From a virus, in IMG/VR virus record IMGVR_UViG_3300028920_002860, positions 1 through 23,282 of that record: a stretch of DNA of 23,282 nt, one strand, 5' to 3'. This document shows, in pieces, positions 5,713 through 21,480 of this stretch. The translations under genes and the position numbers were made by a program. The notes below the pieces were generated by a model that ran no database searches, was not told where the DNA came from, and saw only the letters and a program-made list of their open reading frames with translations. The first letter of the stretch is position 1; each line of letters opens with the position of its first letter.

Positions 5713-8700
5713 ATGGGCGGAGAAGCCCGCCAGCTCCCGTTGACCGACGAGGTCCTCTCCGGCATGACCGACGAGCAGGTCGGCCTCGCGCTCGACGTCG
5801 TCGACGACATCCTCATCCGCGAGGGCGTGTTCAAGGCGGCCGAGGGCATCAACGCGATCCAACGCGACCTCGCCACGTCCTTCGGCCAGAAGTGGGGCTC
5901 GAAGGCGAAGGGCGTGATCTTCGAGGCCGCGCAGGCGCTCTCCGACGCGGGCCTCGGGATCATCTCGCAGGCCGACCTTGACGCGGTCCTCGACGGGATC
6001 GACGGCAAGATGAAAGGATACGGCTTCACGCCCGCGATGCAGTCGAAGGTCCGTAAGGCCGCGGGCGTCGCCATCAGCCTCGCGATGAAGGGCGCGCTCG
6101 AGGAGTCGAAACTCGACGTCCCCTCGTCCTTCGCCCTCGTCGACAAGAAGGCGCTCAACGCGCTGACGAAGAACTACACGCATTGGGTCGACGGGTACTA
6201 CCACAGCAACGTCCGCGAGGCGCTCCGCGTCGGCGCGTCCGAGGCCATCGTGAAGGAAGGCCTCGCGGGGCGCGACGCCGGGCGGCGGTTCAAGGAGGTC
6301 GCCGACCACTACTTCAAGGGGAAGGCCGGGCCGGCGCCGGGGCTGCCCGCCTCGCTCTCGGTCCCAAAGTCCTACCACGGGACGGCCGACCAGTATTGGG
6401 ACGGCCTCGCCAACCATGTCGCCTACCAGGGCAACGTCTTCGGCCGCATCGACGCCTTCAAGAAGATCGGCGTGACCAAGTACCGCATTGTCGCCGTCCT
6501 CGACCGACGGACGTCCGACATCTGCCGGATGATGCACGGCCAGGTCTTCACGATCGAGCAGGCGCAGCCGAACCTCGACGCCTGGATGAGCGACACGCCG
6601 GCGGACGTGAAGGATGCGGCAGGATGGCAGAAGGGTCCGGCCCTCGCGAAGGAGATCGGCCTGTCGGGCTACAAGCCCGGCGCGACGACGCCGAGCATGA
6701 CGCCGGCGCAGCTCAACACGATCTCGTCCAAGGGCCTCGCGCTCCCGCCCTACCACTTCCGCTGCCGCACCGATGTCGACATCGAGGAGCAGGTCGAGGA
6801 CCTGCCCTTCATCCCCGGCGAGAAGCCGCCGAAGAAGCCCGCGCCTGCGAAGCCCAAGCCGAAGGAGCCCAAGAAGCCGCCAGCCGCGAAACCGAAGCCG
6901 AAGCCCGTGCCGAAGCCTCCCGCGCCGAAGGCTCCGACGCCGATCCCGTCGAAGCCGAAGCCCGGCGCGAAGAAGCCCGACATCAAGCCCGCGCAGCCGA
7001 CGCCGGAGTCGAGGACCCCCAAGGAGTTCCCCTGGGCGGAGGACCAGCTCACCGAGGTCAAGCGCGGCGCGAAGGGGATGCACGAAAAGCAGTTCTTCAA
7101 GGACCCCGACGGCAACGAGTGGATGTTCAAGCCCGCGCCCGGCGGCAAGGACTTCCGCGCCAACGTCGAGTCCATCGCGTCCGAGGCGGCGAAGCGGCTG
7201 GGCCTCGACTCGGCCGACGTCTTCCTGGTCAAGCACCGCGGCAGGACCGGCACGATGCACCGCATGTTCAAGGCCGTGAAGAACGACGGCCTGGAGCGCG
7301 TCGGGATCGAGGGGCTGACGCAGCAGCAGGTCGAGGCGATGCAGCGGCAGCACGTCCTCGACTGGCTGATCGGGAACAACGACATGCACGCCGGCAACTT
7401 CATGGTGCTGAAGGACGGCACCCTCGTCGGCATCGACCGCGGGCAGGCCTTCCGCTACTTCGCGAAGGACCGCCTCGCGACCGACTACAACCCCAACGCG
7501 GGCTATGGAATCCGCGTGCTCTACAACGACCTCTTCGCCGCCGCGCAGAAGGGGAAGATGCCGAAGGGGCTGAAGCTGGTCGACCTCGACTCGGCGCCGA
7601 TGCGGAGGATGCTGGAGAAGGTCGCGTCCGTGTCGGACGATGAGTGGCTCGCGATGTGGAAGCCCTACATCGACGATGCGCTGAAGAACAAGAGCCTCGC
7701 CTTCGGGTCGCGCGCCAAGTTCGAGGCGGAGCTGCTGCGGCGGAAGAACTCGCTCGGCAAGGACCTCGACGAGTTCTACTCAAAAATCTTCAAGCGGCAG
7801 ACGCGCGAGGTCGCCGAGGCGCAGGCCCAGAAGGGCGCGCTCACGAAGGTCGACGCCAAGCTGGCGAGGAAGGTCGGGGAGTCGCAGAACCGCGGCGCGA
7901 CCGTCCTCGTCGCGACCGAGAAGGTCGAGAACGGCAACCTGCTCGTCTACCGCTACAAGGACGGGAGCACCGTCGTCGAGGGCAAGGTGCGCCGCTCGGC
8001 CGACGAGGTCGTCAAGCGCCGCCTCGTCGGCGAGGACGGGATGCGGAAGATGGCGGCGGACGCCGCCGACGCCGGAGGCGTCGACCCGGATTGGACCGCC
8101 ATCCTCAACCAGATCAAATCATTCAACTACCACCTCGGCCCCGGCGGCGACGGCGTGATCTCGAAGATCAAGCAGGACGCCTTCTTCTCGAAGCTGAATG
8201 CGCTGAAGAAGAAGATGACCGACCCGACGGCCACGCCGCAGAACAAGGCGAAGGCGAAATACTACCACGACATGCTCTCGAAGTACGGGACACAGAAGAA
8301 GGGCATCCACCTCGGCCCGAAGACGAAGAAGATGCTCGGCGTCAAGCAGGAGCCCTACACGCCGCCGAAGCCGAAGGAGACGCCGCAGCGGACGGGCGGC
8401 AAGTCGAGGCGCGTGAAGAAGTCGAACGTGCGGAAGATCGCCGAGGAGAAGCGGGCGCTGGAGAACGGCGAGATCGTCAACGAGACCGGCGGCGGCCTGA
8501 CAAGCGCGGGCCTTCGGACCGACGAGTTGAGGGAGATGATCGTCGCGGAGCTGGACGACGGCACGCGAATCTTCTACACGCCGCACGACAACCACCACAT
8601 GGGGCAGGCATACTCGAAGCAGGGCCGCTTCCGCATCGTCGTCCCGAAGGGGTCGAGGCCGCCCGGCGCGAAGGAGATCGAGAGGGCGCTCGACGCGCTC

Positions 8701-9507
8701 GAGGACATGGGCGTCGAGAAGAAGCTGATGACCCCGGACGACTTCGAGCTGCTCTACCTTCGGAAGAACGCGCACGCGATGGGGATCGCCGACGATCCCG
8801 TCTTCGCCAACATCTCGTCCGACCTGCCGGTGAAGAAGCAGGTCGAGAGGATGCTCGAGGGGTTCAAGAAGAAGATCGGGAAGGACCCGCGCAAGATGGC
8901 GGGCTACAACCCGAAGCCCGTCTTCTACGGCAAGGAGGGCGAGGGCATCGCGCGCTTCCAGCGGTTCGACTTCTCCGACGCCGACATCGCGAAGAGGAAG
9001 TTCACCATCATCCACGACCTCTACTCGTCCAGCCCCGGCGACTTCCTCCTCTCGCGCATCGACGACGGGACGCGGTGCCTCATCGCGACCGAGGAGAAGA
9101 TCAGGCGCGGCATCCCCCTCGCCGGCATGAGCCCCGGCGCCGACCAGAACACGGGCGGCGCGCAGTTCGTCTTCCTCCGCATCAGGAAGGGCGCGGCAAA
9201 GGGACGCCGTCGCATCCACCTGAAGAAGGCGCTGCTGCGCGACACCAACGCGGTCTCCTACAATGGGGACTACTTCGGCAACATGGAGCCGTCCTTCAAG
9301 GAAGCGCGCCGCGCGAAGACCGTGCCCGAGGCGCTGAAGATGACGTCCAGCAGCAACGAGACCTTGATCAAGAACGAGGTCCCGCTCGAGATGTGGGACC
9401 ATATCGACGTCGGCAGCGCCGCCGAGCGGACGCGCGTCCTCGGCGAGCTGCGCAAGCGCGGGATCAAGGAGATCGGCGGCACGCCGATCGAGGACTTCGT
9501 GAGGTAG
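5713..9507 (+). CDS. Giant MuF-type minor head protein with fused kinase-like domain
   Basis: This 1264-aa protein starts at ATG 5713 (AGGA at 5701-5704) and ends in tandem TAG stops. Residues 1-200 are helical. Residues about 200-360 carry the Mu gpF minor-head signature: DRRTSDIC (264-271) and, after a spacer, PPYHFRCR (ending at 352). A Lys/Pro-rich linker (about 365-435) follows. Residues about 440-650 look like a HipA/PI3-4-kinase-type kinase: Lys473 in WMFKP, GNNDMHAGN (D557, N562) and GIDRG (D575). A Lys-rich stretch follows, then an unassigned C-terminal region (about 930-1264). MuF proteins sit at the portal, usually at 300-500 aa, and some carry C-terminal toxins delivered by phage. 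Here the extra domains may be packaged and injected. The MuF assignment is firm, the kinase fold likely, the C-terminal function unknown. Confidence 0.85.
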   Translation: MGGEARQLPLTDEVLSGMTDEQVGLALDVVDDILIREGVFKAAEGINAIQRDLATSFGQKWGSKAKGVIFEAAQALSDAGLGIISQADLDAVLDGIDGKMKGYGFTPAMQSKVRKAAGVAISLAMKGALEESKLDVPSSFALVDKKALNALTKNYTHWVDGYYHSNVREALRVGASEAIVKEGLAGRDAGRRFKEVADHYFKGKAGPAPGLPASLSVPKSYHGTADQYWDGLANHVAYQGNVFGRIDAFKKIGVTKYRIVAVLDRRTSDICRMMHGQVFTIEQAQPNLDAWMSDTPADVKDAAGWQKGPALAKEIGLSGYKPGATTPSMTPAQLNTISSKGLALPPYHFRCRTDVDIEEQVEDLPFIPGEKPPKKPAPAKPKPKEPKKPPAAKPKPKPVPKPPAPKAPTPIPSKPKPGAKKPDIKPAQPTPESRTPKEFPWAEDQLTEVKRGAKGMHEKQFFKDPDGNEWMFKPAPGGKDFRANVESIASEAAKRLGLDSADVFLVKHRGRTGTMHRMFKAVKNDGLERVGIEGLTQQQVEAMQRQHVLDWLIGNNDMHAGNFMVLKDGTLVGIDRGQAFRYFAKDRLATDYNPNAGYGIRVLYNDLFAAAQKGKMPKGLKLVDLDSAPMRRMLEKVASVSDDEWLAMWKPYIDDALKNKSLAFGSRAKFEAELLRRKNSLGKDLDEFYSKIFKRQTREVAEAQAQKGALTKVDAKLARKVGESQNRGATVLVATEKVENGNLLVYRYKDGSTVVEGKVRRSADEVVKRRLVGEDGMRKMAADAADAGGVDPDWTAILNQIKSFNYHLGPGGDGVISKIKQDAFFSKLNALKKKMTDPTATPQNKAKAKYYHDMLSKYGTQKKGIHLGPKTKKMLGVKQEPYTPPKPKETPQRTGGKSRRVKKSNVRKIAEEKRALENGEIVNETGGGLTSAGLRTDELREMIVAELDDGTRIFYTPHDNHHMGQAYSKQGRFRIVVPKGSRPPGAKEIERALDALEDMGVEKKLMTPDDFELLYLRKNAHAMGIADDPVFANISSDLPVKKQVERMLEGFKKKIGKDPRKMAGYNPKPVFYGKEGEGIARFQRFDFSDADIAKRKFTIIHDLYSSSPGDFLLSRIDDGTRCLIATEEKIRRGIPLAGMSPGADQNTGGAQFVFLRIRKGAAKGRRRIHLKKALLRDTNAVSYNGDYFGNMEPSFKEARRAKTVPEALKMTSSSNETLIKNEVPLEMWDHIDVGSAAERTRVLGELRKRGIKEIGGTPIEDFVR
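7030..7662 (+). other. Kinase-like domain within the MuF protein (residues about 440-650)
   Basis: The order of elements is that of HipA-like and PI3/4-kinase-like enzymes: an ATP-binding Lys473 in a beta strand, a Glu-containing helix (ESIASEAAKRLGL), a catalytic loop GNNDMHAGNF with D557 and N562, and a metal-binding Asp (D575) in GIDRG. All expected catalytic residues are present, so activity is plausible. The substrate, protein or otherwise, cannot be read from the sequence. Confidence 0.65.
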
Positions 9508-10290: not shown

Positions 10291-13200
10291 ATGAGGATCA
10301 AGGACATCAGCCCGGACGCCCTGCGCCGGGTCGACGACCGCGAGCTGCTCTCGCTGCACCTCCGCACCCATCAGCTCCACGGCGCCCACTTCGCCGACGA
10401 CGCGCCGAAGGGCCGGGGCCTGCGCGACGACAAGGGCGCCGAGGCGAAGGACGGCATCCTCGTCGCGGACAACGACGCGATCCTCGACGCCTGGAAGGGC
10501 AAGCGCGAGACGCTGCCGCTCAAGGCCGCGCCCAAAGGCGACGGCCGCACCTTCATCCTGGTCTCGCCGTCCCTGGCCTACGGCGTCGTCCGCCTCGGCG
10601 ACGAGAAGGACGGCGAGTGGCCGATCCTCTTCCTCAACCCCTTCGATGTCCCGCTCCCCTACGCGAGCGGCAAGGTCGACGGGGCCGTCGTCCCCGACAT
10701 CGACCTCGAGGGCGACGGCGCGCCGATGTCGCTCGAGGACCTCGTCCACGCGCACCTCTTCGTCGTCGAGGAGATGCTGCGTCGGGAGATCAGGCACAAG
10801 CGCGTGTCCGACCTCGACGACGAGGAGCTGCCCGACGGGACCAAGGCACCGGTCGTCAAGTTCGCGTGCCCCGACCCGGACAGCATGCCGAACGTCGTCA
10901 CGAAGGCCGGCGACGTCGCGGCCGCCCTCAAGCCGCGCGCCGGGCAGGCGGTCGACATCTTCTGCGGCATGGGCGCCCTGTCCATCGCCGCCGCGGCCGA
11001 AGGCTTCCACTCGACGCTCGCCGTCGAGAACGAGCCGCTCGCCGCGACGTCCTACGCGACCAACCACCCGCGGACGACCGTATTCCACGGAGATGTCCGC
11101 CAGCTCAACGCGGCCGACCTGGCCAAGGCGCTCGGGCCGGTCGACCTCGTCTGCGGCGGCGTCCCCTGCGAGCCCTTCTCGACCATCGGCGCGAAGGACC
11201 CGACCGACGGGCGGCGCGGCCTGATCAAGGTCGCGGTGAAGTTCGTCAAGGCGATGCGCCCGCGATACTTCCTCTTCGAGAACGTGCCGCAGGCGATGAA
11301 GGCCGACGGCTGGGCGACTGCGAGGAAGGCGCTGCAGCGCGAGGGATACGCGACCGACTTCTGGGTCGTGACGCACAACGAGGTCGGCGGAGGCACGGCG
11401 CGCAAGCGCGTCTTCTTCGTCGGCGTCCGCGGCGGCGAGCTGCCGTCGCTCGACGACCTGCCGCGCTCGAAGTCGGCCGGGTTCAAGGCCGCGCTCAAGG
11501 GCATCACCTCGCCGCCGAAGGGCGAGAACAAGGCCGACCCGATCCACGTCCATCCCGGTCCGCTCCAGCCGCACGCCGTCCGCAACGTCGCGCAGGTCCG
11601 CGCCGGCGGCAAGCCGACGGCGACCTGGAACGTGCGGCCGACGCCGCCGCAGGACCCCGCGCCGACCCTGCTCTCGCAGGCCGACAACCTGCACTGGTCG
11701 GCGAAGCGCCTGCTCACCGGCCGGGAGATGGCGACCCTCCACGAGATCCCGAGGTCCTACCGCTTCGTCAACTCGACCAGGAGCGGCGTCCGCAAGCTGG
11801 TCGGCGACTGCGTCCCGATCCGCCTCGGCCGCGCGGTCCTCGGCCACCTGAAGAAGGCGCAGGCGGAACGGGACCGCGAGCGCGGGCCGGTCGCGAAGGG
11901 CCTCCGCGCCGTCGACCTGGCCGACTTCAAGAACGTCGTCCACGAGGCGAAGGACGTGTGGAAGGTCGCGACGCCGAGGCCGCGCGCCGTCGACCTGTTC
12001 AGCGGGATGGGCGGGTTCTCCCTCGGCGCGTCCGCGGCGGGCTTCGACACCGTCCTCTCCGTCGAGTGCGACGAGCGGGCCGCGGCGACCTTCGCGGAGA
12101 ACCACGCCGGGGCGCCGGTCCTCCAGGCCGATATCAGGAAGATCGACCCGAAGGAGATCGCGCGAAGGGTCGGAAGGATCGACCTCGTGATCGGCGGCGT
12201 GCCGTGCGAGGCGTTCTCGCCGCTCGGCCGCGGCACCGCGCCGGAGCAGCGGAAGGCCGGCGTCGGCCCGGCCCACATGCAGGACAAGAAGCGCGAGAAG
12301 ACCGGGCGACGCGACCTTGTCAAGGTAGCCGTGAAGTGGGTCGAGGCGCTGCGCCCGAAGTTCGTCGCCTTCGAGAACGTGCCCGAGGCCGCCGATTCCG
12401 GCGAGTGGGACGCGGCGGTCAAGTCCCTCAAGCGCGCCGGATACGACGCGACGATCTGGGTCATGCGCGACGAGCAGGTCGGCGGGGCGACGAAGCGGAA
12501 GCGCGCCTTCCTCGTCGCGAAGCGCGACGGCGCGCTCCCCTCCCTCGACGACATCCCGCGACGCAAGGCGACCGCGTGCGGCTCGATCCTCTCGAAGTTC
12601 GCCAGCCCGCCGCAGGGGTCCAACCACGCCGACCCGCTCCACGTCCATCCCGGCCCGCTGACCGACATCGCGAGGCGGAACATCGCGGCCTCCGACCGCG
12701 GCGAGGCTCCGAAGGCCGGATGGGCGATCCGCCCGTTCTCCGCCGACGGCCCCGCGCCGACGATCACGTCGGGCAACGACGTGATCCACCCGAACCGCAA
12801 GCGATACCTCACGGGCCGCGAGATCGCCGCCCTGCACGGCGTGCCGAAGTCCTACCGCTTCCCCGCGTCGACGACCAGGACGGGCGTCCGCGACCTCGTC
12901 GGCGACTCCGTCCCGGTGCCGCTCGGCCGCGCCGTCCTCTCGCACCTCTCCTCCGGCCGCGCGACGAAGTCGGTCGTCGGCCCCATGCCCGCCAACCTCG
13001 TCGAGGACATCGGCGATGTGAAGCGCGTGGAGACGTCGAGGCCACGCGTCGTCGACCTCTTCTCCGGCATGGGCGGCTACTCGCTCGGCGCCCGCGCCGC
13101 CGGATTCGAGACGGTCCTCGCCGTCGAGCACGAGAAGCACGCGGCGGCGACCTTCGCCGCCAACCACGGCGGCACGCCCGTCTTCTTCGGCGACATCCAG

Positions 13201-16200
13201 AAGGTCGACCCGAAGGAGGCGCGCAAGCGCGTCGGCCCGGTCGAGATGATGATCGGCGGCGTGCCGTGCGAGCCCTACTCCTCGTCGGGCCGCGGGTCGG
13301 CCCCGGAGCAGCGCAACGACGGCGGCCGCGTCTTCGGGCGCCGCGGCCTCGTCAAGGTCGCGGTCTCCTGGGTCGAGGCGTTCTCCCCCAAGTTCGTCGC
13401 CTTCGAGAACGTCCCGCTCGCCGCCGACTCCCCCGAGTGGAAGGCCGCGCTGAAGTCGCTGGCCGGGATGGGCTACAGCGCCACCATCTGGGTCGTGCGC
13501 GACGATCAGGTCGGCGGGGCGACGACACGCAAGCGCGCCTTCCTCGTCGCGTCCAAGGGCAAGCTGCCCGACCTGGACGCGATCCCGAGACGCAAGGCCA
13601 GGACGGTGAAAGACGTCCTCGCGGCCCTTCCGTCCGTCGGCAGCGGCGACCCGCTGCACGTCGCCCACGGGACGGTCTCGGAGCGGAGGCTGAAGGGCAT
13701 CCGCGCGCAGCTCGACGGCAAGAAGATCCCAGGCTTCTTCCACGAGGGCGTGAACAAGATGGATGAGCCGGCGCACCCGATCATCGCCAGCCGGCAGTCG
13801 ATCCACCCGAGCCTCAAGCGGCACTTCACGCCGCGCGAGGTCCTGACCATGCACGGGGTCCCGAAGTCCTATCGCTTCCCCGTCAACATCGGGACCGTGC
13901 CGTCGCTCGTCGGCGACTCCGTCCCGGTCGCGCTCGGGTCGGCGATCATCAACCACCTCACCGGCCGCGCGCGGAAGGACGAGGAGGCCGACTGGCTGGG
14001 CGACGCGACGGACGCGATCCTTCCCGAGATCCTTGCCGACGAGATTGTCGGCGTCGACCTCGAGGGCTTCGAGGACATCGCGAAGGAGCACGCCGGCCCC
14101 GGCGGGTTCTCGGTCAAGATCGACCCGACCGACCTCCCCAACGTGATCACGAAGCAGGAGCAGCTCCGCAAGGACGCGGGCGGCGGCAAGCGCGTCGTCG
14201 ACCTGTTCTCCGGTCTCGGGGCCTACTCGCTCGGGGCGCACGCCGCGGGCTACCGGACCGCGCTCGCCGTCGAGCTGGAGCCGACGGCCGCGGCGACCTT
14301 CGCGACGAACAACCCGCGGTCGCAAGTCTACTTCGGCGACGTCCGCAAGCTGGACCCCCGCGCGGTCCGCGACAAGATCGGCAAGGTCGACCTCGTGATC
14401 GGCGGCGTGCCCTGCGAGCCCTTCTCGTCCGCCGGCAATTCCAGGGTGGATCAGCAGAACGACCCGCGCCGTGGTCTGGTCGGGATCGCGGCCAAGTTCG
14501 TCGAGGCGCTCGAGCCCGACTTCTTCGCCTTCGAGAACGTGCCCCAGGCCGCGAAGTCGTCCGAGTGGGGCCGCGCCCTCAAGCGGCTCAAGCGCGGCGG
14601 CTACGAGGTCGCGATCTGGAAGGTGTCGCACGACGAGGTCGGCGGCGCGACGAAGCGCAAGCGGGCCTTCATGGTGGGCGGCAAGAACGGCCTCCCATCG
14701 CTCGACGACCTCGGGCGGAAGTCTGCGACGCCGTGCGGCGAGGCGCTCAAGGGACTCGGCAACCCGCCGTCGAGGGAGAACCCGAGCGACCCGCTGCACG
14801 CGGTCCCGTACCCGCTGCGACCGAACGCCATCCGCAACATCGCCTACATGAAGGCCAACCCCAAGGCGACCGCGCCGCCGAGCATGTGGGCGGTCCGCCC
14901 CGTCGACTCGCGGCAGCCGTTCTTCACGATCGTCGGGATGGTCGACATGCTGCATCCGAGCAGCCGCCGCTACCTGACCGCGCGAGAGGCCGCGACGCTG
15001 CACGACATCCCGAAGTCCTACCGCTTCCCCGACACGCGGCACATCGCTGTCCGCACGCTGATCGGCGACTCGGTCCCGGTCGCGCTCGGCACCGCGGTCC
15101 TCAAGCACCTCACCTCCGCGAAGGTCGCGAAGGGCGAGGGCGTCGACCGCGACGAGGTCATCCGCTGCATCGAGGAGGCTGGCGAGTTCGTCGTCGTCCG
15201 CGACTTCGTCTCGCTGGTCGGGTCGGTCGTGACCGCGCCCGAGGGCCGGCCCGCAAAGGACGTCGACCTCGTCGTGCGCGACGACGTCCCCGACTCCTCG
15301 GTCGAGCTGAAGCTGCGCCGTCTCTTCCCTCCGGCCATCCGCAGCAAGGTCCATATGGTATGGGACGCGAAGGGGCCAAACTGGGCCTACCTCCCGTTCT
15401 ACGACCTCGTGCTGCGGAAGCGCGACGAGCTCAAGGCGCAGGGCGTCGACGAGCCCGACTACAAGCCCTATGCGTCGGGGTCCGTCGAGAAGGCCGAGGC
15501 CGTCCGCCTGATGCGGCCGTTCGTCCCGCTCAAGGCGAGGACCGGATACCACCAGGGCGAGTTCTTCGCGGTCGACCCGCTGCTCGACCTGTGGGCCGCG
15601 CCCGCGTTCAAGCAGGGCAAGTCCGTCGCGGTGGAGCCGAAGTTCGACGGCGTCCGCCTGACCGTGCACAAGGACGGCGACCGCGTCGCGATTTTCACCG
15701 AGGACAAGAAGCGCGACCGCGCCGCCATCCTGCCCGACGTCGTCGAGGACGTGCGCAAGCTGAAGGATGAGAAGCTGATCCTCGACGGCGAGATGGTCTG
15801 GTGGAAGGACGGCAAGCCCATCGCCCGGCACGACATGATGAGGATCGTCGTGGGCAAGGACCCGCTCAAGGGCGAGGACCTGCGGCTCAACGCATTCGAC
15901 ATCCTCTGGCGCAACGACGACGGCCCTCTCGACCACATGCCGTGGGCCGCGCGGCAGGCGCAGCTCGAGGCCGCGCTGCCCGACGACACGAGGCACCTCA
16001 AGAGGGCGCGCCCGACCGTCGCCGGCAACCGTCGCGAGTTCCTCGCCGCGGTGAAGCGGGCGAGGGCCTACCCCGGCAGCGAGGGCGCGATGCTCAAGCT
16101 GACCGACGCGCCCTATGACCTCGACGGGCGGAGCGGCGCGTGGGCGAAGCTGAAGGACGTCTTCGAGCTGCAGGTCGTCGTGATCGGCGCGAAGAAGAAG

Positions 16201-18222
16201 ATCCCGTCGAAGGACGAGGACGCGGACTTCCGCAAGCAGCCGGGGCGGTGGTCCTACGACGGGATCAAGGACCCGTCCGCGTGGACCTACCGCGTCGCCT
16301 TCCTCGGGCCGCGCGGGAAGCTGATCCCGATCGAGGCCGACGAGACCTACACCGAGAGCGACCTCAAGCTGCGGTGGGTCGACAAGGGCGAGAAGGACCC
16401 CGTCACCGGCCAGGTCGCGAGCGAGAGCCAGTGGCGTGGGACCGACGACCCGCGGCTGTGGAAGATGGGCCGGGGCTTCGACGCGCGCAAGGCCGGAGAT
16501 GTCCAGTACGGCACGACCTACAACACCGGCATCGAGGCGAAGATCGGCGACGTGATCACGGTGACGCCCGTCTTGATGCGCGAGTTCTCCGGGCCGCAGG
16601 GCCGGCGCCGCTACTCGTGGACCTTCCCGATCGTCCGCGAGGCGACGCCGACCAGGGAGCGGCCCGACACCCTCGAGGATGTGCGGCGAATCGTCGCCGC
16701 CAGCTCCGAGCGGACGCCCGAGGACATGCCCGACGAGAAGGATGTGAAGGAGGTCGCGAAGTCGCGCGGCCGCCTCGGCATCAGCCGACTCCAGAAGCAG
16801 CGGCGCGGGCAGATCGATCCCGACGAGTCGACGAGGGACCAGGAGCGCGAGGCGGCGGAGCGCGCCGGCGGCGACCCCTACATGGTCCCGCAGAAGGGCA
16901 AGGCCGAGCAGCGGTTCGTCGCGCAGCTCCACTACCGCGGCTTCTGGTCGGAGGACGAGCGGGACCTCGTCCGCGAGGCGCTGAAGAAGGCGCGGGCCGA
17001 GGCGAAGGCCGGCGACCGTGCGGCGGCCAGGGAGATCCTCGACAACGCGTGGAAGGATCTTGGACCCGCGATCCTTCGCGTCCCGCTCGACGAGCTGAAG
17101 GCCGGGGCGCAGCGCGCCGAGGACGCGGGCGACGGCGACGTCTCCGCGGCGGTGCGCCGTGGCCTGGACACGCGGCCGCCGAAGGTCGACGACCTCGAGG
17201 GGATCGAGGGGCGCATCGTGAACCTCGGGAACGTCCACGCCGACCTGCGGATGAAGTCGCCCCTCGGCGAGTGGCTGATCGGCTGGACGCTGGACACGCC
17301 GAAGGTCGCGATCCAGACACTCGACGGCAAGGCGGTCCCGCTCCTGCGGAACAAGATCACGCACAACGAGGAGGGCGACAACATCGTCGCGCAGCGCAAG
17401 CTGGTCCAGCCCGTCGCGTGGCTTGACATCGTCTCGAAGGACAAGCCCGTGCACAGGACCGGCGCCGGCCAGGTCGGCGCGACGCCCGGGACGGCCGGCG
17501 AGTTCCACTACCTCGCGTCGGGGCGCGCCGTCTTCGGCGTCCAGAAGACCGACTACCACGAGGTCTTCCTCTTCCCCGAGGACGGCACCGACTGGGGCGG
17601 GCGCTGGGGTCTCCAGCTCATCGAGGGCCGGCCCGACTACCGCCGGGCGCGCGGCGAGTTCTGGATGGCGAACCGCCCGAAGGAGCAGTCGCCATACATC
17701 ACGACGCACGACGAGGAGAAGGAGAAGGACAAGGCGAAGCGCGAGAGGATCGACGTCGAGTGGAACACCGACACGGTCGAGGCGCTGCGCGCGAAGGGCT
17801 ACTCGCCGCTCGGCCCGGAGAAGGCGGCGAAGCGCGACGGGCGGAAGGTCCGCCTGCTCGTCCCCATCGCGAAGATCGCGAAGCAGGAGCGGTATGTCCT
17901 CGGCGTCGTGATGGAGCCGGACGCCGTCGACGCGCACGGCGAGGTCGCGGACGCGGCCGACATTCGACGCGCCGCCCACAATTTCCTTGTCAAAGGCGCA
18001 CAGATCGGTTATCAACATCAAGAGAAGCCAGGCGGACTGACACTCTTGGAGAGCTATCTTGCACCCGTCGAATTCAAGCTGGGCAACCGAACCGTCCCGA
18101 AGGGGACGTGGCTGATGGCGGTCCGCGTGAACAACGACAAGGTGTGGCAGGAGGTCCTCGACGGGAAGCTGACCGGCTTCTCGATCGAGGGCTACGCGAA
18201 GCGAGTGCCGGTCGCGGCGTAG
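10291..18222 (+). CDS. Giant polyprotein: four C5 DNA methyltransferases, nucleotidyltransferase, DNA ligase, 3'-phosphoesterase-like, XkdF protease
   Basis: The frame is unbroken for 2643 residues. ATG 10291 was chosen because AGGAGG (10276-10281) lies 9 nt upstream and the previous gene ends at 10277; the longer upstream frame overlaps both small genes. Order: N-terminal region with a His-rich LHLRTHQLHGAHF (about 1-215), methyltransferase units at about 219-520, 565-890, 919-1230 and 1300-1612, nucleotidyltransferase-like (1620-1720), ATP-dependent ligase (1765-2140), LigD-type phosphoesterase-like (2205-2480), XkdF protease (2527-2643). XkdF proteases mature phage capsids, and the place just before scaffold and capsid genes is the normal one. 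The protease may cut the chain so that the enzymes stay in the head. A fused polypeptide or self-processed parts are both possible. Codon use is uniform except for an AT-richer patch near the protease His. Confidence 0.9.
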   Translation: MRIKDISPDALRRVDDRELLSLHLRTHQLHGAHFADDAPKGRGLRDDKGAEAKDGILVADNDAILDAWKGKRETLPLKAAPKGDGRTFILVSPSLAYGVVRLGDEKDGEWPILFLNPFDVPLPYASGKVDGAVVPDIDLEGDGAPMSLEDLVHAHLFVVEEMLRREIRHKRVSDLDDEELPDGTKAPVVKFACPDPDSMPNVVTKAGDVAAALKPRAGQAVDIFCGMGALSIAAAAEGFHSTLAVENEPLAATSYATNHPRTTVFHGDVRQLNAADLAKALGPVDLVCGGVPCEPFSTIGAKDPTDGRRGLIKVAVKFVKAMRPRYFLFENVPQAMKADGWATARKALQREGYATDFWVVTHNEVGGGTARKRVFFVGVRGGELPSLDDLPRSKSAGFKAALKGITSPPKGENKADPIHVHPGPLQPHAVRNVAQVRAGGKPTATWNVRPTPPQDPAPTLLSQADNLHWSAKRLLTGREMATLHEIPRSYRFVNSTRSGVRKLVGDCVPIRLGRAVLGHLKKAQAERDRERGPVAKGLRAVDLADFKNVVHEAKDVWKVATPRPRAVDLFSGMGGFSLGASAAGFDTVLSVECDERAAATFAENHAGAPVLQADIRKIDPKEIARRVGRIDLVIGGVPCEAFSPLGRGTAPEQRKAGVGPAHMQDKKREKTGRRDLVKVAVKWVEALRPKFVAFENVPEAADSGEWDAAVKSLKRAGYDATIWVMRDEQVGGATKRKRAFLVAKRDGALPSLDDIPRRKATACGSILSKFASPPQGSNHADPLHVHPGPLTDIARRNIAASDRGEAPKAGWAIRPFSADGPAPTITSGNDVIHPNRKRYLTGREIAALHGVPKSYRFPASTTRTGVRDLVGDSVPVPLGRAVLSHLSSGRATKSVVGPMPANLVEDIGDVKRVETSRPRVVDLFSGMGGYSLGARAAGFETVLAVEHEKHAAATFAANHGGTPVFFGDIQKVDPKEARKRVGPVEMMIGGVPCEPYSSSGRGSAPEQRNDGGRVFGRRGLVKVAVSWVEAFSPKFVAFENVPLAADSPEWKAALKSLAGMGYSATIWVVRDDQVGGATTRKRAFLVASKGKLPDLDAIPRRKARTVKDVLAALPSVGSGDPLHVAHGTVSERRLKGIRAQLDGKKIPGFFHEGVNKMDEPAHPIIASRQSIHPSLKRHFTPREVLTMHGVPKSYRFPVNIGTVPSLVGDSVPVALGSAIINHLTGRARKDEEADWLGDATDAILPEILADEIVGVDLEGFEDIAKEHAGPGGFSVKIDPTDLPNVITKQEQLRKDAGGGKRVVDLFSGLGAYSLGAHAAGYRTALAVELEPTAAATFATNNPRSQVYFGDVRKLDPRAVRDKIGKVDLVIGGVPCEPFSSAGNSRVDQQNDPRRGLVGIAAKFVEALEPDFFAFENVPQAAKSSEWGRALKRLKRGGYEVAIWKVSHDEVGGATKRKRAFMVGGKNGLPSLDDLGRKSATPCGEALKGLGNPPSRENPSDPLHAVPYPLRPNAIRNIAYMKANPKATAPPSMWAVRPVDSRQPFFTIVGMVDMLHPSSRRYLTAREAATLHDIPKSYRFPDTRHIAVRTLIGDSVPVALGTAVLKHLTSAKVAKGEGVDRDEVIRCIEEAGEFVVVRDFVSLVGSVVTAPEGRPAKDVDLVVRDDVPDSSVELKLRRLFPPAIRSKVHMVWDAKGPNWAYLPFYDLVLRKRDELKAQGVDEPDYKPYASGSVEKAEAVRLMRPFVPLKARTGYHQGEFFAVDPLLDLWAAPAFKQGKSVAVEPKFDGVRLTVHKDGDRVAIFTEDKKRDRAAILPDVVEDVRKLKDEKLILDGEMVWWKDGKPIARHDMMRIVVGKDPLKGEDLRLNAFDILWRNDDGPLDHMPWAARQAQLEAALPDDTRHLKRARPTVAGNRREFLAAVKRARAYPGSEGAMLKLTDAPYDLDGRSGAWAKLKDVFELQVVVIGAKKKIPSKDEDADFRKQPGRWSYDGIKDPSAWTYRVAFLGPRGKLIPIEADETYTESDLKLRWVDKGEKDPVTGQVASESQWRGTDDPRLWKMGRGFDARKAGDVQYGTTYNTGIEAKIGDVITVTPVLMREFSGPQGRRRYSWTFPIVREATPTRERPDTLEDVRRIVAASSERTPEDMPDEKDVKEVAKSRGRLGISRLQKQRRGQIDPDESTRDQEREAAERAGGDPYMVPQKGKAEQRFVAQLHYRGFWSEDERDLVREALKKARAEAKAGDRAAAREILDNAWKDLGPAILRVPLDELKAGAQRAEDAGDGDVSAAVRRGLDTRPPKVDDLEGIEGRIVNLGNVHADLRMKSPLGEWLIGWTLDTPKVAIQTLDGKAVPLLRNKITHNEEGDNIVAQRKLVQPVAWLDIVSKDKPVHRTGAGQVGATPGTAGEFHYLASGRAVFGVQKTDYHEVFLFPEDGTDWGGRWGLQLIEGRPDYRRARGEFWMANRPKEQSPYITTHDEEKEKDKAKRERIDVEWNTDTVEALRAKGYSPLGPEKAAKRDGRKVRLLVPIAKIAKQERYVLGVVMEPDAVDAHGEVADAADIRRAAHNFLVKGAQIGYQHQEKPGGLTLLESYLAPVEFKLGNRTVPKGTWLMAVRVNNDKVWQEVLDGKLTGFSIEGYAKRVPVAA
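10945..11850 (+). other. Cytosine-C5 methyltransferase unit 1 (residues about 219-520)
   Basis: Motif I DIFCGMG (222-228) binds S-adenosylmethionine. Motif IV GGVPCEPFS contains the catalytic Cys293. Motif VI FENV (329-332) supplies Glu330. Motif VIII is VGGGTARKR (365-373). A short specificity region containing HVHPGPL follows, then motifs IX-X ending LVGDCVPIRLGRAVL. The unit is complete, so activity is plausible. It is preceded by PDSMPNVVTKAGDV, a linker whose relative occurs before unit 4. This copy lacks the longer insert after motif IV seen in units 2 and 3. Confidence 0.85.
11983..12960 (+). other. Cytosine-C5 methyltransferase unit 2 (residues about 565-890)
   Basis: DLFSGMGGFSLGA (from 568), GGVPCEAFS with Cys639, FENV (694-697), VGGATKRKR (to R738) and GDSVPVPLGRAVL (from 871) give a full set of C5-methyltransferase motifs. 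After motif IV comes GRGTAPEQRK and a charged insert (to about 670). It is closest to unit 3: both share GRG-APEQR and ATIWV-RD-QVGGAT. Confidence 0.87.
13045..13980 (+). other. Cytosine-C5 methyltransferase unit 3 (residues about 919-1230)
   Basis: DLFSGMGGYSLGA (from 922), GGVPCEPYS with Cys993, FENV (1038-1041), VGGATTRKR (to R1082) and LVGDSVPVALG (from 1206) are present. The specificity region differs clearly from the other units: it has SGDPLHVAHGTVSERR and a GFFHEGVNKMDEP stretch not seen elsewhere. That suggests a different target sequence. Confidence 0.87.
14188..15126 (+). other. Cytosine-C5 methyltransferase unit 4 (residues about 1300-1612)
   Basis: DLFSGLGAYSLGA (from 1304), GGVPCEPFSSAG with Cys1375, FENV (1414-1417), VGGATKRKR (to R1458) and LIGDSVPVALGTAVL (from 1590) are present. 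It is preceded by a longer acidic linker (about 1230-1300) that ends in DLPNVITKQEQL, resembling the linker before unit 1. The specificity region contains DPLHAVPYPLRPNAIRN, again different from the others. Confidence 0.87.
15148..15450 (+). other. Nucleotidyltransferase-like segment (residues about 1620-1720)
   Basis: The pattern LVGS (1642-1645) followed by KDVDLVV (1656-1662) resembles the GS...DxD core of the polymerase-beta-type nucleotidyltransferase superfamily. The segment is short, the spacing between GS and DxD is somewhat long, and a third catalytic acid is not obvious. It could be a reduced nucleotidyltransferase or a structural remnant. Confidence 0.45.
15583..16710 (+). other. 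ATP-dependent DNA ligase domain plus OB fold (residues about 1765-2140)
   Basis: The adenylation motif is VEPKFDGVRL with Lys1784 as the predicted AMP-accepting residue. LDGEMV (1831-1836), SEGAMLK (1930-1936) and WAKLK (1951-1955) match ligase motifs III, IV and V. An OB-type region follows (GDVITVTPVLMREF, then WTFPIVREATP). The whole covalent nucleotidyl-transfer core is intact. Such enzymes seal nicks in duplex DNA using ATP. Confidence 0.85.
16903..17730 (+). other. LigD-type 3'-phosphoesterase-like domain (residues about 2205-2480)
   Basis: VHADLRM (His2316, Asp2318, Arg2320) matches the HxDxR core of the LigD phosphoesterase, and EWLIGWTL follows as in that family. An earlier His2214 in VAQLHYRGF could be the first active-site His, but a charged helical insert of about 95 residues separates the two. 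Downstream, DYHEVFLF, GGRWGLQL and FWMANRPKEQSPY resemble the C-terminal half of such domains. In LigD this domain trims 3' ends before ligation. The assignment is by motif resemblance only. Confidence 0.5.
17869..18219 (+). other. XkdF-type phage serine protease domain (residues about 2527-2643)
   Basis: The segment starts RYVLGVVMEPDAVDAHGE, a form typical of XkdF-like maturation proteases. It carries a candidate catalytic His2576 in GYQHQ and Ser2631 in LTGFSIEGY near the C-terminal end. AHNFLVKG, LLESYLAP and GTWLMAVRVNNDKVWQ lie between and are also family-like. These proteases cleave scaffold and capsid components inside the prohead. The scaffold-like gene follows directly. Confidence 0.8.
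17987..18015 (+). promoter_or_regulatory. Intragenic sigma70-like promoter candidate before the scaffold and capsid genes
   Basis: TTGTCA (17987-17992, five of six), a 17-bp spacer and TATCAA (18010-18015, four of six) lie inside the protease-coding part, about 220 bp before the scaffold start. They sit in an unusually AT-rich stretch (17961-18075). This would allow the abundant scaffold and capsid proteins to be made in excess over the giant protein. Confidence 0.4.
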
Positions 18223-18235
18223 AGGGAGATCCCCG

Positions 18236-19600
18236 GTGGCCGATCCTGTCGACAAAAAGGCGAAGCGCAGACTCACCGACATCAACGTGACCAACGTCGA
18301 TCTGGTCGACCGGCCGGCCAACCAGGAAGAGTTCCTCGTCGTAAAGAGGAAGGACGGGAAGGAGGACCCCGACATGGACCCGAAGGATGAGAAGGTCGTC
18401 AAGGACGAGGAGAGCACCGTGGCCGAGGAGCTGACGGACGGCGGCGGGAGCGAGGACGCCCCCGACACCGACGAGTCCAAGGACGACGACGCCGAGGACG
18501 GCGACGGGTCCGACGACGCCGGGGGCGACGCCAAGGACGACGACGCCAAGGACGACGACGCCGAGGGCGACGACTCCGAGGGCGGCGATCCCGTGCAGAA
18601 GGCGGTCGACGCCGTCGAACGGTTCACGGGCGCGCTCAACGACTTCCTCGCCGGCCTGGAGAAGGGCGGCAAGAAGAAGACCGAGAAGGAGGAGGACGAG
18701 GACGGCCAGGTCGAGAAGGCGGACGGGATCGCGAAGCTGGCGAAGATGGTCTGCGACGAGGCGCGCAAGGTCCGCAAGATGAGCGACCTCCCCGAGCCCA
18801 TCGGCAAGGCGCTCGACGGCCTGATCAAGATGGCCGACGACGTCCTCGCCGCCGCGGAGAAGGCGGGCAAGTACCCCTACCCCGAGCCGGCCTCCGCGAA
18901 GAAGCAGGACGACGAGGACGAGGACGGCAAGGTCGAGAAGGCCGGCCGCATCCTGTCCGCGGCCAACATCAAGACCGTGAAGGACGCGCTCTCCGGCATG
19001 GGCAAGGCGCTCGAGCTGCTGGGCGGCATGGTCAAGCAGGTCGAGTCGCGCTACGCCGAGAAGGCCGAGGGCGAGGACGACGAGGACAAGGACGCCGAGG
19101 CCGCCGACAAGGGCGAGACCAAGAAGGGCATGTGCCCCGAGTGCGGCGCCCCGCTCTTCGGCAAGGCCGTGTGCAAGAAGTGCGGCGCGAAGATCGGCAA
19201 GGACGGCAAGGTCGCGAAGGCCGCGAAGGCGGACGACGAGGACGACGCCGGCAAGGCCGAGAAGCAGGACATGATGAAGTGCCCGCACTGCGGCGCGGAG
19301 ATCGAGGCGGGCCTCGACAAGTGCCCCGAGTGCGGCAAGGCCATCGAGATGGAGAAGGCCAAGGGCAAGAAGGACGACGACGCCGAGGCGACCGACAAGA
19401 AGATCCTCAAGGCCATCGAGAACCTCGCCGACAAGGTCGAGGCCCTCGGCAACCGCGTGACCAAGGCGGAGGCCGCGGTCGGGATCTCGAAGTCGCTGGG
19501 CGACGACGAGGAGGACGGCAACGGCGAGAAGCCGTCGCTGTGGTCCGGCCTGGGCCTCGTGCCGGGCGACGTCGCGACCGAGCGGCAGAGCAAGGACTGA
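18236..19600 (+). CDS. Acidic scaffold-like protein with two zinc ribbons
   Basis: GTG 18236 follows GAGGGAG (18222-18228), 13 bp after the protease stop. The 454-aa product opens with INVTNVDLVDRPANQEEFLVVKR, the sequence often found where XkdF-type proteases join their scaffold part. It continues with a very acidic Asp/Glu-rich tract (about 40-120) and helical segments. Two four-cysteine clusters are present: C300/C303 with C313/C316, and C349/C352 with C363/C366, each CxxC-x9-10-CxxC as in small zinc ribbons. A coiled coil (about 385-425) follows. It is probably an internal scaffold for capsid assembly and a substrate of the upstream protease. The ribbons are unusual for a scaffold and might bind nucleic acid or the packaged enzymes. 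Confidence 0.8.
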   Translation: MADPVDKKAKRRLTDINVTNVDLVDRPANQEEFLVVKRKDGKEDPDMDPKDEKVVKDEESTVAEELTDGGGSEDAPDTDESKDDDAEDGDGSDDAGGDAKDDDAKDDDAEGDDSEGGDPVQKAVDAVERFTGALNDFLAGLEKGGKKKTEKEEDEDGQVEKADGIAKLAKMVCDEARKVRKMSDLPEPIGKALDGLIKMADDVLAAAEKAGKYPYPEPASAKKQDDEDEDGKVEKAGRILSAANIKTVKDALSGMGKALELLGGMVKQVESRYAEKAEGEDDEDKDAEAADKGETKKGMCPECGAPLFGKAVCKKCGAKIGKDGKVAKAAKADDEDDAGKAEKQDMMKCPHCGAEIEAGLDKCPECGKAIEMEKAKGKKDDDAEATDKKILKAIENLADKVEALGNRVTKAEAAVGISKSLGDDEEDGNGEKPSLWSGLGLVPGDVATERQSKD

Positions 19601-19669: not shown

Positions 19670-20872
19670 ATGTCCGTGGACAACCAGGAGATCCTGCGAA
19701 AGGCCGTCATCACCACCGACTCGATGACCACCGCCGGACTGCTCAACCCCGAGCAGGCCGACAAGTTCATCGACTTCGTGTGGGACATCTGCAAGCTGAA
19801 GGGCAACGCCCGCACGCTGAAGTTCCGCCCCGAGGAGCTGCAGATCGACAAGATCGGCGTGGGCTCCCGCGCGGCGGTGCCGAAGGTCGAGGCGACCGAT
19901 CCCGGCGTGCGGCGCGGCATCACCACGAGCCGCGTGACCCTGCGGCCGTCCGAGGTGATGGTGCCCTTCGAGATCAGCTACACCGCGCTCGACGTGAACC
20001 TCGAGGGCGAGAAGCTGGCGGAGCACCTCGTCAAGATGTTCGCCACCCAGTTCGGCAACGACCTGGAGGAGCTGTACATCCAGGGCGACCAGCTCGGCGC
20101 GGCCATCCTCGAGAGCGACTACTTCGACGGCGGCGCGTCCGACAAGTACGTCAAGGACGGCTTCCTCGCGCTGCAGGACGGGTGGCTGACCCTCGCCCGC
20201 CAGGGCCACGGCGTCGACTTCGCCGGCGCCAACATCAGCAACCGCCTCTTCTCGCGGCTGCTGAACGCGCTGCCCGAGAAGTTCAAGCGCGACCGCACCA
20301 AGCTGCGGTTCTTCTGCTCCACCGACCTCGAGCAGAACTACCGCGAGAAGGTGGCGGCGAGGGCCACCGGCAAGGGCGATCAGGCGCTCATGTCCGAGAT
20401 GCCGCTGACGCCGTTCGGCGTCCCGCTGATCGGCGTGCCGCTCCTGCCCTTCCAGCCCAAGATCGTCGAGCACGTCGTGGTCAACACCGACGGGACCACC
20501 GCGACCGCCCTGCTCTACAAGGACCTCGCCAACGTGGTCGTGACCACCTCGACGCTCGGCGCCTCGCCGGAGTCGGCCTACACCGAGGGCGTGGACTACA
20601 CCCTCGACGCGGCCAACGGTACGATCACCCGCCTCGGCGGCGGCTCCATCCCGAGCGGCGGAACCGTCAAGGTCACCTACCAGGCCGAGGCCCAGGTGAT
20701 CTGCACCCACCAGGACAACTTCCTCGTCGGCATCGGCAAGGACGTCCGCATCGAGACCGACCGCGACATCTTCAAGTCCGTCCTCCAGTACGCGCTGACC
20801 GCCAAGGTGGCCTGCGAGTTCGAGGAGGCCGACGCGATCAGCTTCGGCTACAACATCGGCCTCGACGTCTAG
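19670..20872 (+). CDS. Major capsid protein, HK97-like fold
   Basis: ATG 19670 has the strongest ribosome binding region in the window. The 400-aa product is a typical capsid size and follows the scaffold. The N-terminal part (TTAGLLNPEQADKFIDFVWD) and a central ISYTALDVNLEGEKL stretch resemble capsid proteins of P2-like and related phages. An Ig-like or beta-rich insert appears near the C-terminal third (about 270-345), with the repeat-like YTEGVDYTLDAANGTITRL and GTVKVTYQ. The chain then returns to QDNFLVGIGKDVRIETDRDI, typical of the capsid axial domain. No N-terminal delta domain is evident, consistent with a separate scaffold. A hairpin-rich gap follows. Confidence 0.85.
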   Translation: MSVDNQEILRKAVITTDSMTTAGLLNPEQADKFIDFVWDICKLKGNARTLKFRPEELQIDKIGVGSRAAVPKVEATDPGVRRGITTSRVTLRPSEVMVPFEISYTALDVNLEGEKLAEHLVKMFATQFGNDLEELYIQGDQLGAAILESDYFDGGASDKYVKDGFLALQDGWLTLARQGHGVDFAGANISNRLFSRLLNALPEKFKRDRTKLRFFCSTDLEQNYREKVAARATGKGDQALMSEMPLTPFGVPLIGVPLLPFQPKIVEHVVVNTDGTTATALLYKDLANVVVTTSTLGASPESAYTEGVDYTLDAANGTITRLGGGSIPSGGTVKVTYQAEAQVICTHQDNFLVGIGKDVRIETDRDIFKSVLQYALTAKVACEFEEADAISFGYNIGLDV

Positions 20873-20976: not shown

Positions 20977-21480
20977 ATGACGACCGCGAAGAAGAAGGCG
21001 ACAGGGGCTCACAAGAAGTCCACTGGCCGAGCGGCGAAGAAGCCCGCGAAGAAGAAGGCGAAGGCGAAGAAGGCGGCGACGCCGAAGAAGCCCGCGAAGC
21101 CCAAGTGCTACGGCGACGCGGGGACCTTCGACCTCGACGATCCCGGCTGCGCGGCCTGCGACTGGCAGGACGACTGCGGCGCGGAGATCGCCCTCTCTAA
21201 CTTCCCGAAGCCGGACGAGGACGAGTCCCCGCCGGCCGACGAGGAGAAGGCGGAGGCGCCGCCCGTCGAGGACGCGCCGAAGCCGCGCAAGGCGAGGACC
21301 CCCGCGGCCCCGCCGCCCCCGCCGTCGGGGACGGCCCGCGTGATCCTCAAGGTCGGCCGCACCGACACCCCGATCCCGGGCGGCCAGAAGTTCTACCTCA
21401 ACCGGCCGGTGACGGTCCGCAACCCCGAGCACATCGCGCTGCTCCGGGTCAACGGGCGCTACTCGGTCGAGGAGGGCTGA
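20977..21480 (+). CDS. Small protein with histone-like basic tail and four-cysteine cluster
   Basis: ATG 20977 follows GGGAGG (20963-20968) with an 8-nt gap. The 167-aa product has three parts. Residues 1-43 are Lys/Ala/Pro-rich like a histone H1 tail. Residues 44-67 hold C44, C58, C61 and C67 in a CYGDAGTFDLDDPGCAACDW arrangement, a pattern I associate with small zinc-binding modules in phage and bacterial proteins. After an acidic, Pro-rich linker (72-116), the C-terminal part is a small beta-rich domain ending VNGRYSVEEG. The basic tail probably binds DNA or RNA. It may be a minor head protein or DNA-associated protein; function unknown. Confidence 0.75.
   Translation: MTTAKKKATGAHKKSTGRAAKKPAKKKAKAKKAATPKKPAKPKCYGDAGTFDLDDPGCAACDWQDDCGAEIALSNFPKPDEDESPPADEEKAEAPPVEDAPKPRKARTPAAPPPPPSGTARVILKVGRTDTPIPGGQKFYLNRPVTVRNPEHIALLRVNGRYSVEEG

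Follow-up and report, generated by a model that had tools for sequence, protein, structure and literature searches.

The window, a single virus record of 23,282 bases (IMGVR_UViG_3300028920_002860), carries head genes in this order: terminase large subunit, portal, a MuF-type protein that includes a HipA-like part, a giant protein that combines several enzymes and has an XkdF-type protease at its end, P0001 and an XkdG-like capsid protein. By Pfam, the giant protein (10291..18222, + strand; the start codon at 10291 is our own reading) contains five stretches of C5-cytosine methylase (PF00145), an ATP-dependent DNA ligase domain (PF01068) and a C-terminal XkdF-type prohead serine protease domain (PF14550, E 3.8e-28; 17866..18204, + strand). 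In its relatives, this C-terminal protease is joined to other enzymes, namely D12 adenine methylases, ligase and other methyltransferases. The XkdG-like major capsid protein (19670..20872, + strand; 400 amino acids) matched phrog_1623, a virion structural protein, at E 1.1e-73, and its tblastn matches were annotated major capsid proteins and XkdG, each below 60% identity. An additional segment of this protein, near residues 280-343, is similar to Ig-like or tail tube proteins; phrog_807 matched at E 3.5e-7, and NF052337 at E 1.2e-8, which falls short of that model's cut-off. The HipA-like stretch of the MuF-type protein (5713-9507), which matched Pfam HipA_C at E 8.7e-7 and 29.2 bits, just below the cut-off of 30.5, is a possible candidate for a packaged effector.

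Between the protease and capsid genes lies P0001 (18236..19600, + strand), an acidic, scaffold-type head protein of 454 amino acids with a GTG start. It contains 120 acidic (D+E) and 76 basic (K+R) residues, for a net charge of -44. An N-terminal element (18263..18355, + strand; residues 10-40) includes VDLVDRPAN at residues 21-29, and phrog_3017, a head maturation protease family, matches residues 10-58 at E 1.1e-9. An acidic linker follows (18356..18589, + strand; residues 41-118; net -30), which AlphaFold2 predicts to be mostly disordered (pLDDT mostly below 50). The helical part (18590..19087, + strand; residues 119-284) has predicted helices at 119-146, 158-180, 187-211 and 242-284, the last preceded by a KAGR..S..N stretch (235-244) that is conserved in an alignment of four siblings. 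Further on are a C-terminal helix in the AlphaFold2 model (19370..19477, + strand; residues 379-414) and the motif SLWSGLGLVPG (19535..19567, + strand), whose W-x-G would contact the capsid. Compared with viral structures, the full model gave no match at E 0.001 or better.

Eight of the nine cysteines of P0001 (173, 300, 303, 313, 316, 349, 352, 363 and 366) fall in two CxxC clusters. Pfam, the structure model and the cysteine spacing all point to the first cluster as a zinc ribbon (19133..19183, + strand; residues 300-316; C-x2-C-x9-C-x2-C; CPECGAPLFGKAVCKKC); the second (19280..19333, + strand; residues 349-366; C-x2-C-x10-C-x2-C; CPHCGAEIEAGLDKCPEC) lies in the best stretch for Zn_ribbon_3, residues 346-368. 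P0001 scored above the curated Pfam cut-offs for Zn_ribbon_3 (E 6.4e-8; 32.2 bits vs 27), DZR (E 7.4e-7; 29.7 bits vs 27.3) and Zn_Ribbon_1 (E 5.2e-6; 26.5 bits vs 25). Shuffling its 454 residues 200,000 times produced at least one cluster in 104 sequences and two clusters in none. Thus, the Pfam scores, the shuffles and the net charge support the initial annotation, which had placed two zinc ribbons in an acidic scaffold candidate and bracketed the pair at 19133-19339.

The structure prediction that it had proposed for this region also agreed. With a 56-row alignment, AlphaFold2 modeled ribbon 2 at a pLDDT near 90 (ten-residue blocks of 73 for residues 341-350 and 89-90 for 351-370) and ribbon 1 in blocks of 74-76 (residues 301-320). 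When the 102-residue ribbon stretch was modeled alone, pLDDT was 76-78 for ribbon 1 and 78-82 for ribbon 2. Two CxxC knuckles at ribbon spacing and short strands in the model, the features by which we recognize a ribbon, are present in P0001, and both predicted ribbons would bind zinc. Comparison of the ribbon model with the PDB using Foldseek gave no match at E 0.001 or better (best E 0.13), and the best VIA-align match had a Z of 3.1 and an rmsd of 1.8 over 31 residues, with NZF- and RanBP-type fingers among the best. We claim no fold neighbor for the modeled ribbons, and these weak matches name no ligand.

Since the P0001 sequence as query brought no relatives in viral contigs or phage records, we built a survey on the capsid protein. 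(The ribbon stretch alone matched nothing in viral contigs and gave seven matches at E 0.03-0.9 in phage records.) The survey covered viral contigs, genome contigs and phage records, with loci taken from among the matches listed. As a single query, the capsid protein had no match in genome contigs; a capsid alignment found 30 loci there, titled Bacillus (27), Brevibacillus (1), Oscillospiraceae (1) and uncultured cyanobacterium (1), and none of the ORFs examined at these 30 loci had a CxxC pair. Among the matches listed, 236 of the 292 capsid-matching loci have an ORF with an LVDxPAN element immediately 5′ of the capsid gene. Because these include contigs present more than once, we reduced the 236 to 126 non-redundant loci; the element is in a separate scaffold gene in 100 and in one ORF with the protease in 26. 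Scaffolds were picked by the element, and the counts omit L258, which has no capsid match, and the 56 element-less loci, which include most proteins of the Circinus type described below.

P0001 has the sequence traits of this XkdF-type family, as its gene lies between those for an XkdF-type protease and an XkdG-like capsid protein and its N terminus contains LVDxPAN. PF14550 is not among the families listed for P0001; that domain ends the upstream protein instead. Since separate genes are the commoner arrangement (100 of 126, among the matches listed), this bars P0001 from the name XkdF, but not from the scaffold family. Among the same matches, 98 of the 100 separate scaffolds are net acidic and 76 have W-x-[GSND] within the last 30 residues. 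We infer that P0001 is the prohead scaffold of an XkdF/XkdG-type head, and consider it very probable that its anatomy is that of such a scaffold carrying two lineage-specific zinc ribbons.

Among the closest known head proteins is XkdF of PBSX-like elements (PF14550, Peptidase_S78_2), represented here by Bacillus phage PBP180 ORF10. ORF10 shares an LVDxxAN-type element, the protease and a C-terminal W-x-G, and, like the window's set, lies upstream of the capsid gene. It is a single protein with the element before the protease, whereas the window has separate protease and scaffold genes and a scaffold with ribbons.

We characterized the N-terminal element with a profile trained on 47 separate scaffolds. 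Of 90 non-redundant loci in which the protease has its own ORF, 89 gave a match to the profile; 47 of these had trained it, and the scaffolds of all 90 were chosen regardless of the element. At E < 1e-3 the profile matched 183 ORFs, and 179 of them were those picked as immediately preceding the capsid gene. (Both figures use the longest ORF upstream of the capsid gene, a pick that is wrong for L023 and L112.) Phage records that matched were JP1 (L004), PBP180 (L006), DLP_5 (L211) and RcMenchie (L215). At E < 0.5 the profile found nothing in PA_L9 (L210), Trina (L212), RHph_I4 (L213), VH2_2019 (L214), phiH (L216), BoomerJR (L217) or psiM100 (L218); by a plain motif scan, the element is present in L212, L213, L214 and L217 and absent from L210, L216 and L218.

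Fusions link the element to the protease. In seven loci (L019, L026, L031, L038, L040, L072 and L078), the element follows the protease domain within one ORF (E 5e-4 to 4e-14), and since protease and scaffold are fused there, they plausibly act together. The element precedes the protease in PBP180 (E 4e-6). Streptomyces/Circinus-type proteins matched the profile at E 0.11-0.29 only. In Circinus (L005), the sequence ELSLVDSPAN, which starts at residue 152, lies within a match to PF04586 (Peptidase_S78) that spans residues 105-166 (27.6 bits, cut-off 21) and within a match to the HK97 proheadase model TIGR01543 that spans 103-166 (23.6 bits vs a cut-off of 59). This position within the Peptidase_S78 stretch indicates that the element appears to be part of the protease fold, yet in the window it starts a separate gene. 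As judged from these sequences, the first 40 residues of the scaffold likely complete or dock on the protease fold, tying protease and scaffold together. A protease-fold element that opens a separate scaffold gene is a layout that could tether the two without a ribbon. Because it occurs in 89 of the 90 non-redundant loci with a separate protease ORF, the element is likelier than the ribbons to be the general tether.

We determined how the ribbons are distributed among relatives. The nearest are L002 (with L003, identical in the scaffold gene), L007 and L074, whose capsid proteins are 70-78% identical to the window's. Their scaffolds are 38-43% identical to P0001 over the full length, and P0001 is homologous to P0005 of L002. 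These siblings have the same gene order and the long upstream protease ORF, but no ribbon: in a four-sequence alignment, both ribbons are gaps in all three. Ribbons are also absent from the next two rows out, L008 and L085. The initial annotation had named homologous scaffolds lacking the cysteines, together with no metal binding, as evidence against its reading, and the first half of this is what the three nearest homologues show.

Its claim that such scaffolds normally lack ribbon modules held up. Among the matches listed, 89 of the 100 non-redundant separate scaffolds have no paired-cysteine module and 58 have no cysteine at all. The other 11, a figure that is not a prevalence since two scans targeted the L036 and L178 clades, carry modules of four kinds: the window's pair of ribbons (1), one CPxC ribbon in the L178 clade (4), C-x2-C...C-x2-C in the L036 clade (5) and CFG...CxxC...C in L069. 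In loci up to L084, window included, such modules occur in 6 of 56.

On a quick capsid tree of 99 rows (L077 was left out as short), cysteine modules required 5 changes and ribbons 2, and a single clade of the five ribbon bearers was rejected (p-AU 2e-6). Relative to the conserved KxG helix, the L178-clade ribbon is N-terminal and the two ribbons of the window are C-terminal. Two independent ribbon gains fit these sequences best; a single gain followed by many losses, or transfer, is less likely. The lineage of the window itself probably acquired its two ribbons, which lie in the linker that joins the last helix of the body to the C-terminal helix.

The L178 clade (L178, L220, L222 and L242) belongs to the same family, with a CPxC...CxxCGY motif in a linker and protease ORFs of 924-1229 amino acids. 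Its ribbon columns are 67% identical on average, compared to 20% in the 40 columns before, 25% in the 40 columns after and 40% over the whole protein. None of the 4 members has lost any of the four cysteines. Nonsynonymous and synonymous codon differences numbered 33 and 28 in the ribbon and 886 and 390 elsewhere. Against Pfam DZR, the L178 ribbon, the one scanned, scored E 0.047 and 14.3 bits, below the cut-off of 27.3. The sister of this clade, L240, has no ribbon and a protease ORF of 303 amino acids. The ribbon is kept while its flanks diverge, so scaffolds of this kind can retain a ribbon-like module. The window's double ribbon is known from one genome only.

A model that we favor, tentatively, is that P0001 is an XkdF/XkdG-type prohead scaffold whose lineage-specific ribbons add a binding surface to the core, most likely for protein. 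The N-terminal element would pack against the protease domain that ends the giant upstream protein, tying protease and scaffold together, and the C-terminal motif would touch the capsid shell. The ribbons would be small zinc-held knobs forming a protein-binding grip on the inner scaffold core. Their partner would most likely be a further constituent of the core, perhaps the enzyme portion that is joined to the protease, and the contact would be made before the scaffold is cut and leaves. The chief rivals of this protein-binding model are that the ribbons are passengers and that they bind nucleic acid.

As passengers, the ribbons would be compact folded spacers that a permissive linker acquired by chance, with no partner in the window's phage. 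Their absence from the three nearest relatives, the lack of paired-cysteine modules in 89 of the 100 separate scaffolds among the matches listed and the variable length of the ribbon-bearing linker among siblings are all as expected for passengers. However, all eight cysteines are intact with their usual spacing, the separate scaffolds include four kinds of module, for which the tree requires 5 changes, and in one clade the ribbon is retained as its flanks diverge. We regard passenger status as rather unlikely, although it deserves weight.

The initial annotation had also raised nucleic acid binding. In the form considered here, ribbon 1 and its lysine-rich tail would retain RNA, or the end of the entering DNA, within the prohead. 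Residues 297-330, which comprise ribbon 1 and this tail, are the only one of 13 tabulated segments that is clearly basic (net +6; whole protein, -44), and there is weak sequence likeness to the ribbons of ribosomal L32 and L40e (best E 0.027 and 0.79). Against this, ribbon 2 has a net charge of -3, acidic and basic charges are mixed in the linkers on either side of the L178-clade ribbon, and nucleic-acid binders match the ribbon structure no better than ubiquitin- or Ran-binding zinc fingers do. We consider nucleic acid binding unlikely.

The alternative function in the initial annotation was recruitment of the giant enzyme protein into the head. We compared ribbons with protease ORF length in 98 separate scaffolds with a protease ORF (L045 and L097, where none was found, were left out). 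"Long" was set at 900 amino acids or more, an arbitrary line applied to stop-to-stop lengths; some frames run off contig ends (such as those of L012, L014, L032 and L242), and some short protease ORFs are cut by contig ends. Among the matches listed, 23 of the 98 loci have a long protease ORF, and CPxC ribbons occur in 5 of these 23 and in 0 of the 75 shorter ones (Fisher p 5e-4). When every cysteine module is counted, the figures are 5 of 23 and 6 of 75. On the tree, there were two independent pairs; on average the long state changed in parallel with the ribbon in 1.2 of them, and it changed in the opposite direction in none. With two lineages, the link between ribbon and long ORF cannot reach significance, and the Fisher p is not proof.

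The evidence on the recruitment claim points both ways: all five CPxC ribbons sit beside long ORFs, but 18 of the 23 long-ORF loci, including L002, L007 and L074, have no ribbon. By Pfam, the long ORF of L002 contains two D12 methylase stretches, a ligase and the protease, and that of L074 a ligase and the protease; in the long ORFs of L007 and L222, Pfam finds the protease only. We think it improbable that the ribbons serve to dock cargo, having arisen two or more times in phages whose prohead protease is fused to large DNA-modifying enzymes, and that they hold this enzyme mass within the growing head.

It is very unlikely that P0001 is instead an internal protein that is packaged and enters the host together with the DNA, its ribbons acting in the host cell: gene position alone is no proof of scaffolding and its neighbor is of a kind thought to be packaged and injected (the polyvalent proteins, PMC5512222), but the family has the gene place of a scaffold, a helical body that is acidic and a shared motif at the C terminus, and some members are fused to the protease.

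Tailed-phage scaffolding proteins are mostly treated as helical placeholders. That differing cysteine modules occur in several lineages, and that one clade keeps its module, suggests that these scaffolds can take on extra binding tasks in the prohead. As similar modules occur in a few other related phages, they resemble add-on grips. Both the type of ribbon and the family of scaffolds are of known kinds, and a precedent for their combination did not show up in searches of an open-access library, which listed no paper seen to describe a zinc ribbon in a phage scaffold. Polyvalent proteins of phages are large, combine several enzymes and are proposed to be carried inside the head (Iyer et al., 2017, PMC5512222); the giant upstream protein fits this description and may likewise be packaged in the head. 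In the main text of that paper, "zinc ribbon," "scaffold" and "XkdF" are absent, and "prohead protease" appears once, in the reference list.

A further parallel with a named phage is the capsid maturation protease of the Streptomyces phage Circinus (Stanwilliamsviridae), in which a cysteine cluster, FWC...CxxC...NIGW, lies between LVDSPAN and the helical part. In contrast to P0001, the Circinus-type motif has three cysteines and the protease is in the same chain, and Circinus has no Pfam zinc-ribbon match above cut-off. The motif LVDxPAN...FWC...CxxC...NIGW was found in 23 ORFs, representing 13 non-redundant proteins, and the window is not among the 23. The cyanobacterial locus L278 also has the Circinus-type cluster.

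Other cysteine clusters were observed in and near these head genes. The scaffolds of L036, L057, L060, L062 and L141 carry C-x2-C...C-x2-C and a further cysteine after the N-terminal element, and L079, a near relative of this clade, lacks the module. The module resembles the ClpX zinc domain. The label of a ClpX-like finger was dropped since no Pfam relative was listed for the module and a PDB search gave nothing below E 0.25. The long protease ORFs of L178 (3409-6906) and L242 (2-3445) have a cysteine cluster of their own. In the window, a small protein encoded 3′ of the capsid gene (20977-21480) contains a CYG...CxxC...C cluster, a motif that also follows the capsid gene in L002, L007 and L074 and lies within the scaffold in L069.
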